Source: an unicellular cyanobacterium SU3
GTDB lineage: Bacteria; Cyanobacteriota; Cyanobacteriia; Cyanobacteriales; Microcystaceae
Assembly: GCA_002172675.1 (NCBI GenBank)
Contig: NETF01000165.1
Coordinates: 1-64,000, forward strand
DNA length: 64,000 nucleotides
Direction of reading: 5' to 3'
Of this stretch, positions 30,493 through 55,985 are shown one piece after another. Made by a program: the position numbers and the translations under genes. Under the pieces are notes generated by a model that saw only the letters and a list, made by a program, of their open reading frames with translations, was not told the origin of the DNA and did not search any database. Numbering within the stretch: position 1 is the first letter of the stretch; each line of letters starts with the position of its first letter.

Positions 30493-30563
30493 AGGCAAAA
30501 GCGGTGAGACCCCGCGTCTTCGTAAGACGCACTGGGTAGCTTACCAAGACAGGCAAAAGGCAA
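30493..30563. repeat. GC-rich palindromic element, copy A
   Basis: GCAAAAGCGGTGAGACCCCG is followed by GTCTTCGTAAGAC as an inner hairpin and closes with GCTTACCAAGACAGGCAAAAG. Outer arms (GCGGTGAG and an imperfect complement) pair. It shares GCGGTGAGACCCCGCG and AAGACAGGCAAAAG with copy C (37537-37606). Confidence 0.75.
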
Positions 30564-31860: not shown

Positions 31861-31925
31861 AGTCAGGAGCGGTCAGACCCCGCGCCGCCGAAGGGCGCAA
31901 GGGAATGCTGACCAAGAGAGTCAGG
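31861..31925. repeat. GC-rich palindromic element, copy B, within a heptamer array
   Basis: GCGGTCAGACCCCGCGCCGC, then CGAAGGGCGCAAGGG and GCTGACCAAGAG. The element sits inside a run of AGTCAGG heptamers: the same AGTCAGGAG flanks it on both sides. This suggests insertion into the array. It lies directly after the nifS stop, before nifU. Confidence 0.75.
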
Positions 31926-37447: not shown

Positions 37448-37606
37448 TCCAAGGAAATCTGAATACGAGGGAGACTAGGATGATTCAGGGAGTACCTTAC
37501 TCCCCCCCTCTCCTCTTCTCTCCCCTCTCTTAGAGAAGGCAAAAGCGGTGAGACCCCGCGCCGTCGCACGGCGCAAGGGAACGCTCACTAAGACAGGCAA
37601 AAGGCA
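37448..37606. repeat. Array region and GC-rich palindromic element, copy C, after nifK
   Basis: A short purine-rich stretch (37466-37492) and a CT-only stretch (37499-37530) are followed by copy C (37537-37606): GCAAAAGCGGTGAGACCCCG, an inner hairpin GCCGTCGCACGGC, then GCAAGGGAACGCTCACTAAG. GGTGAG and CTCAC pair as outer arms. The sequence is closely similar to copy A. Confidence 0.8.
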
Positions 37607-48990: not shown

Positions 48991-50946
48991 ATGACCTTAG
49001 ATTTTTCTCCCGTTTGGATATCACTAAAAACTGCTGCTTTAGCAACCCTGATCGCCTTTTTCTTAGGTGCGATCGCCGCGAAGAGTATGTTCAAATATCG
49101 GGGAAAAGCAAAAGGTTTGATTGATGGTATTTTTACCGCCCCTCTGGTACTTCCTCCCACCGTTGTCGGCTTTTTTCTATTATTATTGTTAGGAAAATAT
49201 GGCCCTATTGGTCGACTTTTAAGACTATTTGATGTTACTATAATTTTCACATGGTACGCTGCGGTAATTGCAGCCACTGTTGTAGCCTTTCCCTTGATGT
49301 ATAAGACAGCTTTGGGAGCCTTTCAACAGATCGATACCACCCTTTTGTCCTCTGCAAGAACATTAGGAGCAACAGAATTACAGGTATTCTGGAAAGTCCT
49401 CTTACCCCTCGCTAGACCGGGATTAATCGCCGGGGTATTACTGGCCTTTGCCCGTGCTTTAGGAGAGTTTGGGGCAACTCTGATGTTAGCTGGCAGTATT
49501 CCCGGTAGAACCCAAACCATCCCCATCGCCATCTTCTTTGCAGCCGAAAGTGGGGATATGACAGAAGCTATGCTTTGGGTGAGTGTCATGTTAGGGTTAT
49601 CCCTCTCCATTGTAGTCGCAGTCAACTACTGGAGCGATCGCCGTCCCGAAAAACGCATCAGAAAACGGGCTAAAGAAAGCCATCTCAGCTTAGTTGACGA
49701 AAACTTACTCCCTTGGGATCATCCCGTTACCCCTTTAACCTGGGAACACGCCAGTACCAATGTTTTACCCAGTCCCATCGAGTTAATTGTCGATATTCAA
49801 AAACAATTACCCGGTATCAAAATTAATGTTTCCTTTTCCACCAACCAACTGCCCTTAGGACTCTTAGGGGGGTCAGGTGCCGGCAAAAGCTTCATTTTAC
49901 GCTGTATTGCTGGTTTAGAAACCCCTGACCAGGGTTGTATTATCCTTAACGGAAGGGTGTTATTCGACTCTCGGAGAGGCATTAATGTACCCATCCGCGA
50001 TCGCAGAGTTGGCTTTTTATTCCAAAACTATGCCCTCTTTCCCCACCTTACCGTAGCTCAAAATATCGCCTTTGGACTCCCGAAAGGGTTATCTAAGGTT
50101 GCCATTCGTCAACGGGTAGAAAAACAACTCATTGCGATACAATTACAGGGATTAGGCGATCGCTATCCACAAGAACTATCGGGAGGACAACAGCAAAGAG
50201 TGGCTTTAGCTAGAGCTTTAGCCAGTGAACCCGACATCTTACTCCTAGATGAGCCATTTTCCGCCCTCGACACCTATTTACGGGATCAACTCGAAAAACT
50301 CCTCAGACTCAGTTTAACCCATTTTCCAGGGGCCACCCTTTTCGTCTCTCATAACCTAGAAGAAGCCTATCGTATTTGTCCTAACCTCTTAATCTTAGAC
50401 GAAGGTCAAATTATTGCCCAAGGGCCAAAACAAGAAATTTTCGACTATCCCCACGACTTCCGAGTAGCGCAACTAACCGGATGTAAGAACTTTTCCCGTA
50501 CCCTAGTTACCTCGGAACATGAAATTACCGCCCTTGACTGGGGATGTACCCTAACAATTTATGAACCCATTCCCCCCAAATTAGCCCATCTCGGTATTCG
50601 CGCCCATCAATTGACCTTTCCAGATATTGATGGCATTAAAGACGACTACAGCGACAATATTTTCACCTGTTGGCTTACCAGTCAAAGTGAAACCCAACAC
50701 CGAACAACGTTATACCTGAAGTTAAAATCTGCCCCCACCAGTCCCTTCGACTATCACCTACAAGTTGAAGTATTCAAAGACAAGTGGAACGAGTTGAGAG
50801 AACTTCCTCAACCCTGGCGGATACAACTTCATCCCCTGCGTCTCATGTTACTACAGAATTCAAGCGGTTCCGTATCTCTTGAATATCAACCTAGCCACTC
50901 CCCAAGAATGACTAGGGATGATCGATCTAACCAACAACCATCCTAA
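48991..50946 (+). CDS. modBC: Molybdate ABC transporter, fused permease and ATPase (ModBC)
   Basis: This 651-residue protein combines the molybdate permease and ATPase, so one gene imports Mo for the FeMo cofactor. Residues 1-225 are ModB, with about five helices and the EAA loop [20 protein letters not shown]. Residues about 260-600 are ModC: Walker [12 protein letters not shown] (near 292), signature [16 protein letters not shown] (near 396), and [13 protein letters not shown]-terminal part ([16 protein letters not shown]) resembles a molybdate-binding regulatory domain. No modA is visible nearby. The fusion is typical in cyanobacteria. Confidence 0.95.
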
Positions 50947-50965
50947 TACAAGGAGGACACTTATT

Positions 50966-51262
50966 ATGGCAAGTTTAACTGGCCTTACCTTTGGTAAACT
51001 TGATTGGATTCCTAAATTTGTTGACGCTATCAACAAAGATACTTGTCTTGGTTGCGGACGTTGTTTCAAAGTCTGTGGTCAAAACGTTTTAACCTTAATG
51101 GGTGTTAACGAAGAGGGCGAGTTTGTAGACGAAGACGAAGATGATGACGATATCGAGCGTCAAGTCATGACCATTGCTAACAAAGCAAACTGTATCGGTT
51201 GTGAAGCTTGCGCCCGCATTTGTCCCAAAAATTGCTACACTCACGCCGCTTTACCTGCGTAA
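50966..51262 (+). CDS. fdxB: Nif-specific ferredoxin III FdxB
   Basis: FdxB is a 2[4Fe-4S] ferredoxin of nif clusters. I place the start at ATG 50966 ([20 protein letters not shown]), with AGGAGG at 50951-50956; the frame is open upstream to 50918. Cluster motifs are [20 protein letters not shown] and [21 protein letters not shown] highly acidic linker ([17 protein letters not shown]) separates them. It is 98 residues long and follows modBC by 19 bases, closing the main nif run. Confidence 0.95.
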
Positions 51263-51274
51263 GTTCTTTAGGTT

Positions 51275-51345
51275 AAGTTGGGTTGCGCTTCGGCGCACCC
51301 TCTTACCCTTCGGGAAGTCAAAAGGCAAAAGGCAAAAATATTAAG
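51275..51345. repeat. Small GC-rich palindromes after fdxB
   Basis: GTTGCGCTTCGGCGCACCC holds a TGCGC-TTCG-GCGCA hairpin (51285-51297). CCCTTCGGGAAG forms a second. Then AAAAGGCAAAAGGCAAAA heptamers follow. These may terminate the nif transcript. Confidence 0.5.
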
Positions 51346-51383
51346 ATGTAGATATAATTGTTTGAAATAAAACTATTTTTCTG

Positions 51384-51743
51384 ATGGCTTCTAAATCAAC
51401 AGTCAGTGAATCTGATCTTAAAGAGTTAAAAGATATTATTAATAGTCGTTTTGATGAAGTTGATAAACGATTAACAAGTATTGAAAAAGAACAAATTGAG
51501 ATTAAGAGTGAAATTAAAGGTCAATTAGGAATTATTGATGCAAGACTGAAACAGCTAGAAAGTTCATCTCAGAAAATTCCTGATTTAGCTGAGAAAGTTG
51601 AGGAGCGAACCCGCGCCATCTTACGGCGCAAGGGAACGCGCTCCTACAGAGAACTGAAAAACTGGCGACAAATTGGTTTAGCTTTATTTGGGGTTTTAAT
51701 TGGAGGAATCATAACTTATTTAATTAAAAATCCTAATCCTTAA
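51384..51743 (+). CDS. Coiled-coil protein with C-terminal membrane anchor, carrying an in-frame palindromic element
   Basis: This 119-residue protein is of unknown function. Residues 10-75 are a coiled coil (SDLKELKDIINSRFDEVDKR, EKEQIEIKSEIKGQLGIIDA) and residues about 98-113 are a membrane helix (IGLALFGVLIGGIITYLI). Between them the codons at about 51600-51649 (EERTRAILRRKGTRSYR) come from a GC-rich palindromic repeat and have unlike composition. Without it the protein would read AEKV...ELKNWRQIGL. Its neighbour fdxB is upstream; the PIN cassette is downstream. Confidence 0.7.
   Translation: MASKSTVSESDLKELKDIINSRFDEVDKRLTSIEKEQIEIKSEIKGQLGIIDARLKQLESSSQKIPDLAEKVEERTRAILRRKGTRSYRELKNWRQIGLALFGVLIGGIITYLIKNPNP
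51600..51649. repeat. GC-rich palindromic element read in frame, copy D
   Basis: GAGGAGCG and CGCTCCTA are the outer arms; the inner part reads GAACCCGCGCCATCTTACGG and GCGCAAGGGAAC. It shares CCCGCGCC and GGCGCAAGGGAACGC with copies B and C. It is about 50 bases long and keeps the reading frame of the host gene open. Confidence 0.8.
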
Positions 51744-51825
51744 TTTTCGTTATGGAGCGATCAATATAATCACTTCTTATAAGTTTGAACTTGATAATGT
51801 TCCTGATTAATATTAACCCAATATG

Positions 51826-52026: not shown

Positions 52027-52431
52027 CTAAGTTAAAATAAGTTGAGATGGGGTTAATATTTGTGGATAAGATACGGGAAAATCTTGGGGGTTACGGGTAA
52101 CAATAACATCAAGATTATTAATGACAGCAACACTATATTGTATTGCGTCTTCAAAGTCCCTAAAGTTACTATTTAAAGCCATTTCTATCACAGCAGTATT
52201 AACGGTGGCAACCTGACAAAAACTATATAATCTATTTAAAAAAGTTAATGTCCAATCTTTACCCCTAGTTTTGTTAATAATGTAGTAAATATCGCTAAAA
52301 GTTGCAGCAGAAACATATCCTTCTAGTTGCTTTTCTTCAACTTGAATTAAAACAGCTTCACTGTTTAATAAAAAAGGTTCACGTTGAAGAGCAACATCAA
52401 TAATAATATTGGTATCAATTAGTATTTTCAT
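52027..52431 (-). CDS. PIN-domain ribonuclease toxin (VapC-like)
   Basis: This 134-residue PIN protein would cleave RNA and be held in check by the upstream antitoxin. Conserved acids are seen at MKILIDTNIIIDVALQREPF (first Asp), SAATFSDIYYIINKTRGKDW, and in NSNFRDFEDAIQYSVAVINN (FEDAIQ with Glu/Asp), with VTRNPQDFP near the end. Its start overlaps the antitoxin stop by four bases. The module is flanked by repeats. The target RNA is unknown. Confidence 0.88.
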   Translation of the reverse strand: MKILIDTNIIIDVALQREPFLLNSEAVLIQVEEKQLEGYVSAATFSDIYYIINKTRGKDWTLTFLNRLYSFCQVATVNTAVIEMALNSNFRDFEDAIQYSVAVINNLDVIVTRNPQDFPVSYPQILTPSQLILT

Positions 52432-52748
52432 AGGTTATGTTTTTCTTTTAATGCTTCCCATTTGGCTTTATCTTCATCAAAATCAGGGGGTGCAGGTTGA
52501 CTGTTATCAAATAGTCCTTGAAACGCTTTAACTTTTGAGGGAAAATATTTAGATTTTTTAGTTTCTTCTCTTTGTTTATCTGGAGAAGTTTTAGATTGAT
52601 TTGAGATAGTTTTAGTTTGTAAGATAATAACTTCAACTTCTCCTGGTTCTAAATTCAAGTTATCATTAATAATTAGTTTACCAGACTGATCAATTATTCC
52701 TTTAATTTTCTTAGCTTCTAAGGTTTGAATATTGGTTTTAGGTTGCAT
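52428..52748 (-). CDS. Antitoxin of the PIN module
   Basis: This 106-residue protein precedes the PIN toxin and overlaps it by 4 bases, as in type II modules. The N-terminal part (IKGIIDQSGKLIINDNLNLE and PGEVEVIILQ) has an AbrB/Phd-like beta look, and the charged, disordered C-terminus (PSKVKAFQGLFDNSQPAPPD) would bind the toxin. The family is not certain. Promoter is probably within the repeat-rich sequence beyond 52749. Confidence 0.75.
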   Translation of the reverse strand: MQPKTNIQTLEAKKIKGIIDQSGKLIINDNLNLEPGEVEVIILQTKTISNQSKTSPDKQREETKKSKYFPSKVKAFQGLFDNSQPAPPDFDEDKAKWEALKEKHNL

Positions 52749-55844: not shown

Positions 55845-55985
55845 AGAGGCAAAAGCGAGTGTGTAATTCCGAGGTGTCCTCGGAATGTAGCGGTGCGACC
55901 CCGGCGATTCGTACCGTCGAAGACGCGCCGTTAGGCAACCGCCTAGGGAACGCGCACCAAGAGAAGACACACTCAAGACAGGCAA
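55845..55985. repeat. Nested GC-rich palindromic element, copy E
   Basis: Outer arms AGGCAAAAGCGAGTGTGT and ACACACTCAAGACAGGC enclose a small hairpin (ATTCCGAGG-TGT-CCTCGGAAT). They also enclose a second complete element: GCGGTGCGACCCCGGCG, then GAAGACGCGCCGTT, and GGGAACGCGCACCAAG, arms GCGGTGCG/CGCGCACC. It looks like one copy inserted into another. Confidence 0.8.

Follow-up and report, generated by a model that had tools for sequence, protein, structure and literature searches.

Rickettsia palindromic elements (RPE) are described in PMC2229807 and PMC10969869 as palindromic and mobile sequences that lie both between genes and, in frame, within them, conserved enzymes included, and the former source gives their length as 105-146 bp. 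RPE-4 and RPE-6, which look shorter, have been equated with the CGTC class of REPs in PMC3733652, where a terminal CGTC is stated for R. conorii RPE sequences. That paper presents the GTAG/CGTC REPs as short palindromes of many bacteria that occur as dimers and clusters and have intragenic, residue-encoding copies; among their hosts are tRNA synthetases, and same-site insertions are reported in recB. Bacterial MITEs with ORFs (ERIC, Correia) are non-autonomous elements of about 100-200 bp, some of them fused in frame to genes and most of them causing target duplications (PMC2229807). Rickettsia is the best-known source of in-frame palindromic inserts; for the cyanobacterial case reported here, a close relative has the site cleanly empty. 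Cyanobacterial hairpins known as small dispersed repeats (SDR), treated by Elhai in 2008, are said to be 21-27 nt long in Nostoc and reportedly exhibit compensatory changes and nesting both in their own copies and in heptamer arrays.

We analysed a window of 64,000 nucleotides from the unicellular cyanobacterium SU3 (contig NETF01000165.1), for which a preliminary description had proposed that a palindromic repeat sits at 51600-51649 in frame inside a protein gene. The features of this locus are as follows:

50918..51262, forward strand: upstream ferredoxin-type gene, which provides synteny with the congener G004 (presumably fdxB-like, by inspection)
51384..51743, forward strand: host gene, 119 aa, with a coiled coil, the insert and a C-terminal membrane helix (by inspection)
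51600..51648, forward strand: match to the repeat family model, with arms GGAGCG/CGCTCC, CCC/GGG and GCGCC/GGCGC and conserved internal loops
51601..51648, forward strand: in-frame palindromic insertion of 48 nt, net 16 codons, to which a gap of the same length corresponds in the syntenic ortholog L081

The repeat is indeed in frame within a protein gene: the ORF at 51384-51743, which reads ...KIPDLAEKV-EERTRAILRRKGTRSYR-ELKNWRQ..., carries the covariance model match and is interrupted in its ortholog by a gap of exactly 48 nt. As to its extent, the insert itself stands and its bounds do not, because the inserted part comprises the 48 nt of 51601-51648, with a possible slide of 1 nt at the edges. 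The syntenic ortholog in G004, whose protein is 96% identical, is shorter by exactly 48 nt at the insert; its DNA flanks are 95-96% identical to the window, with one C/T base difference adjoining the junction, and outside the insert the two genes exhibit 10 synonymous and 3 non-synonymous codon differences. Since precisely these 48 nt are missing from a syntenic ortholog with such closely matching flanks, the insert is not a chance feature of the window. The covariance model of the repeat, trained on 11 sequences with the window copy among them, scored this copy with E = 7.5e-15, and support independent of the model is provided by BLASTN, in which 61 nt around the window copy detected other copies in the genome with E-values down to 1.7e-10. 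The intergenic copies at 31.9 and 37.5 kb, noted earlier, were located at 31869-31917 and 37545-37593. Folded as single-stranded DNA, the window copy assumes the family hairpin with z = -3.5, and three further copies gave z = -2.5, -3.6 and -1.3. A search of positions 51300-51800 against Rfam 15 yielded 0 matches with E up to 1, and the window protein had no Pfam match at E<=0.001. The gene is probably translated through the element and would then have a 16-residue basic linker that joins the coiled coil to the membrane helix. Nearby, on the reverse strand at 52027-52748, there is an ORF that resembles a PIN-domain toxin and has a small partner upstream; by sequence inspection the two are a likely toxin-antitoxin pair.

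We interpret the stretch as one copy of a mobile, hairpin-forming DNA element of 48-51 nt that spreads in cyanobacteria (probability about 0.88). Precise insertion, presence or absence between close relatives, a covarying hairpin, insertion of copies into one another and in-frame entry into several kinds of proteins are all observed. Further copies are found elsewhere in the window:

30501..30549, forward strand: copy inside a ggcaaaa heptamer array
31869..31917, forward strand: copy inside a gagtcag heptamer array
37545..37593, forward strand: copy inside a ggcaaaa heptamer array
55890..55962, forward strand: 73-nt copy whose inner part is enlarged, within the larger palindrome gcgagtgtgtaattc..gaagacacactcaagac

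This larger palindrome, or parts of it, in the form gcgagtgygtaattc .. gaagacrcactcaagac with one degenerate base (Y or R) in each arm, encloses a copy not only at 55890-55962 but also in L058, L059, L061, L173, L194, L202, L203 and L207. The window's own genome contains 41 model matches at E<=1. Within the GTDB family, 13 of 50 genomes have matches at 1e-4, including 9/9 of the genus, and outside the genus the distribution is patchy among cyanobacteria; in a sample of 195 genomes of the class, nine have matches at 1e-6, the own genome included. An exact pattern found at least 108 stretches over the GTDB species genomes, and the 80 matches listed with titles all come from cyanobacteria, including Okeania, Xenococcus, Baaleninema, Spirulina, Hyella, Lyngbya and Crocosphaera. 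The copies collected for comparison number at least 255, at least 231 of them distinct after near-identical flanks were dropped; the collection is a sample, with most of one set of identical copies in G001 left out. A contig catalogued as viral (L319, IMGVR_UViG_3300045998_000148) carries five copies in two tandem groups. Six contig ends (L008 and L028-L032, on C115, C85, C63, C52, C41 and C8) have at least 127 identical bases in common, including most of a copy, and probably mark where a repeated insertion sequence ends at an assembly break.

The consensus of the element is GCGGTGCGACCC-inner arm-loop-inner arm-(A/T)AGGGAACGCGCACCAAGA(C/G)A. In 137 distinct copies of 49 nt, standard pairs fill 96.2% of the base-pair cells, as compared with 23-52% when the 3' arms are slid; detection of the copies relied on the model or on a pattern with fixed outer arms, which biases this figure towards the structure. 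Both-sided (compensatory) changes occur in 12 of the 14 hairpin pairs. The minor GACG class, in which two outer pairs are broken, counts against our best explanation. The 5' end is GCGG in the main class, and otherwise GAGG or GACG, and among the 147 copies of the GCGG class about 98% are preceded by A or T, lying in A-rich sequence. A unit of 51 nt (17 codons) is usual: a net gain of 51 nt was found in 22 of 37 DNA-level comparisons with copy-free homologs (a set that includes heptamer arrays and tandem copies, where the edges are uncertain) and in 21 of 32 homolog-verified genes. The window copy adds 48 nt instead, which also weighs against our best explanation. Copies have been inserted into other copies at the AA bulge, and heptamer arrays also harbour them. 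The proposal that this repeat family can move is thus borne out by presence and absence between relatives and by precise insertion at element-free sites.

The element inserts mostly just 3' of an A/T-rich stretch, and we infer that it moves as a folded single strand with an enzyme supplied in trans, for which the HuH/Y1 type is the best guess. As a special case, it could be a long REP-like element mobilised in trans by a RAYT or IS200-type Y1 (HuH) transposase, a possibility to which we give somewhat less than even odds. Single-strand transposition would lead one to expect the precise insertion, the imperfect hairpin with conserved internal loops and the lack of target duplication that was observed at element-free sites in the DNA-level homolog comparison; the genome has 9 Y1_Tnp matches, and the 5' GCGG fits the GTAG tag, if only in its degenerate GYRG form (PMC3733652). 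However, neither the pattern nor the model detected a copy at any of the 9 Y1 loci of the own genome (0/9, up to 1.5 kb on each side and less where contig ends shorten the locus), the GTAG tag proper is absent, and the target exhibits an A/T preference with no fixed tetranucleotide. Linkage to a Y1/RAYT transposase was rejected on the same count of loci, and a dedicated neighbouring RAYT is not supported in this genome. It is unlikely that the element spreads via an RNA intermediate or by template switching during replication from a self-priming hairpin: the conserved hairpin structure and the nesting of copies at their own AA bulge would suit such a process, but slippage does not usually produce units of exactly 51 nt whose ends are precise. 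The mobile hairpin element that we favour would be selfish rather than useful to its host.

To judge what happens when it lands in a gene, we considered those copies for which both flanks match one homologous element-free protein, 32 of the 231 distinct ones; element-bearing ORFs had been removed from the homolog set, and of 42 rows, 8 were self-overlaps with a net of 0 and two, L177 and L179, were misplaced alignments with a net of 24, all of which were dropped to leave 32. The remaining 199 copies have no such homolog in the set. In 27 of the 32 the frame is open without a stop, three are shifted (L225, L287 and, on a weak alignment of 27-28% identity, L291), and two are probably shifted (L233 and L316, of the 53-nt type though scored in frame by protein alignment; for L233 the DNA comparison gives net 53). 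Net values for L155 and L178 are 48 from protein and 51 from DNA. In a transposase-like gene the copy L046 brings in an in-frame TAA, as read by eye; this copy and the frame-breaking ones count against our best explanation. In-frame copies exist in number, as the preliminary description had led one to expect, but without a fixed reading phase: they comprise five combinations of orientation and phase, with element-sense phase 2 the commonest and the window copy in phase 0. Each of the six frames is open in 67-88% of 189 copies (mean about 76%), and all six are open in 48 of them. Because the usual unit corresponds to 17 codons, the frame is kept wherever the element lands, and with about three quarters of the frames free of stops most insertions into genes would leave a readable peptide; those that are tolerated would persist. 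For the same reasons (51 nt never shifts the frame and most frames are open) selection deduced from the frame alone was rejected as proof, and being in frame is by itself no evidence of selection or use. The earlier suggestion that the repeat creates protein sequence in cyanobacteria agrees with the 27 open frames, which are predicted to add residues to their proteins.

A very improbable alternative is that the ribosome skips the element or that it is cut out of the mRNA, so that it is never translated, as is the case for mitochondrial byps and for introns. The few frame-breaking 53-nt copies that share a TnpB codon with in-frame 51-nt copies would be at home there, but the open frames of the homolog-verified copies would then be unnecessary, and so would a length divisible by 3 in 61 of 68 coding copies, although the contrast with the other copies (133 of 163) is weak. 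Convergence, in which the residues EERTRAILRRKGTRSYR would be native to the protein family, can be dismissed, as a search for the same gene in relatives, and for relatives that share the residues without the repeat DNA, found that they have neither: the insert is absent from 17/17 other family members with a readable motif DLAEKV..ELK (18 including the window protein; one of the 17 has a stop just past the motif), the ortholog has the exact DNA gap, and BLASTN finds copies of the repeat elsewhere.

The mobile element has entered proteins of several kinds. In the own genome, a gene for an Uma2 protein on contig C43 is the second clear in-frame case (net 48 nt), and relatives contain many others. 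A Pfam run on 30 proteins (28 of 58 host entries, part of the ORF of L254 and the window protein) identified TnpB (PF01385/PF07282) in 11 proteins, DDE transposase domains in 5, RRXRR plus HNH in 3, which we take to be IscB-like, and a polyketide synthase, a GNAT, a DUF3987 and a HEAT protein, one each. For these last four, as for the DDE host L308, the insert is located outside the matched domains, between them or at their edge; L137, L293, L314 and L308 are weaker cases, judged from the Pfam match only, with the insert outside the domain or bordering on it. In the valyl-tRNA synthetase (ValRS) of Lyngbya aestuarii, the only match in that genome at E<=1e-50, an in-frame copy accounts for 17 residues that are absent from the T. 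thermophilus enzyme and from 4/4 cyanobacterial ValRS compared (two from Okeania, one from Hydrocoleum, read as two pieces, and that of the own genome); Baaleninema was set aside, as it offered only a 28%-identical synthetase. In transposase genes of three genomes (L050, L121, L142) the element occupies the same place (..NWCK), and in L050 the gene seems to have lost the part that follows.

Among 34 TnpB hosts, those outside the Pfam run being identified by alignment, copies occupy 19 reference positions, 31 of the 34 in the orientation of the gene. The codon after NMVK (or its equivalent) is common to 8 copies, with a ninth placed by alignment only. On a tree of 26 TnpB proteins, well-supported branches force at least 5 gains or losses at this codon, which means that the site has been hit, or lost, repeatedly; the insert label is still somewhat clustered on the tree (24 of 500 shuffles as low). 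In the eight congeners G001-G008, tnpB loci hold 22 of the 86 distinct copies. About 1.2 would be expected if each of the 455 TNB-domain matches is taken as 1.25 kb, which makes these loci about 1.4% of the DNA; in this comparison the copies are not fully independent and hosts were partly assigned by alignment. A-rich lysine codons and relaxed constraint may explain much of this excess. Of the 31 distinct copies in the own genome, which has 6 TNB matches, none was seen in tnpB. TnpB zinc-ribbon matches number 6 in this genome (G000) and 26-86 in the eight congeners. In Okeania, a 53-nt frame-shifting subfamily (L233, L235, L237, L238, L281, L287, L289) occupies tnpB sites that are also hit by the 51-nt form, and its copies break the frame of these genes. 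That the element homes to genes for RNA-guided nucleases (TnpB, IscB-like) and transposases, one TnpB codon repeatedly, with mobile elements as its vehicles and their proteins rewritten, is doubtful.

In-frame palindromes are already known from other bacteria (PMC3733652); here they are cyanobacterial and over-represented in tnpB genes. The hosts include an essential enzyme, the one valyl-tRNA synthetase matched in the Lyngbya genome, and the TnpB proteins form a natural set in which peptide inserts occur at 19 positions of the alignment. Two questions, how much inserted peptide an enzyme tolerates and by what means elements of about 50 nt are mobile, can thus be addressed outside obligate intracellular bacteria. 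Sequence strings of the element gave no match in a full-text literature search, and a further search, largely of the beginnings of abstracts, found no description of the family, so an earlier one may exist.

How, then, does the element compare with the known systems? The resemblance to Rickettsia palindromic elements proposed at the outset extends to behaviour and not to membership, judged by description: the element is palindromic, mobile and present in both intergenic and in-frame copies (in line with PMC2229807 and PMC10969869), but it measures 48-51 nt as against 105-146 bp (PMC2229807), a length that by itself leaves room for RPE-4/6, and it belongs to another phylum and has tnpB over-represented among its hosts. 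The terminal CGTC is absent from the window copy and the main GCGG class, whose presence is stated for RPE sequences of R. conorii (PMC3733652), and the minor GACG class carries it on the complementary strand. MITEs are likewise non-autonomous and in some cases fused in frame to genes, whereas our element is shorter than their about 100-200 bp and showed no target duplication at element-free sites (PMC2229807 for the MITEs). With REPs, as PMC3733652 presents them, it shares the short palindrome, dimers and clusters, residue-encoding intragenic copies, a tRNA synthetase host and same-site insertions; it differs in length (51 nt versus 20-40 bp), in the main class being without a GTAG or CGTC tag and, from the GTAG class, in having no repeat-flanked RAYT (Y1) gene at 0/9 Y1_Tnp loci of the own genome. 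Compared by description, it may be identical with the cyanobacterial GTAG-15/16 REPs of that paper. The Nostoc SDR are reportedly shorter (21-27 nt against 48-51 nt). Nested copies, a heptamer context and a covarying hairpin are nevertheless features that, by their reported description, the element has in common with them.
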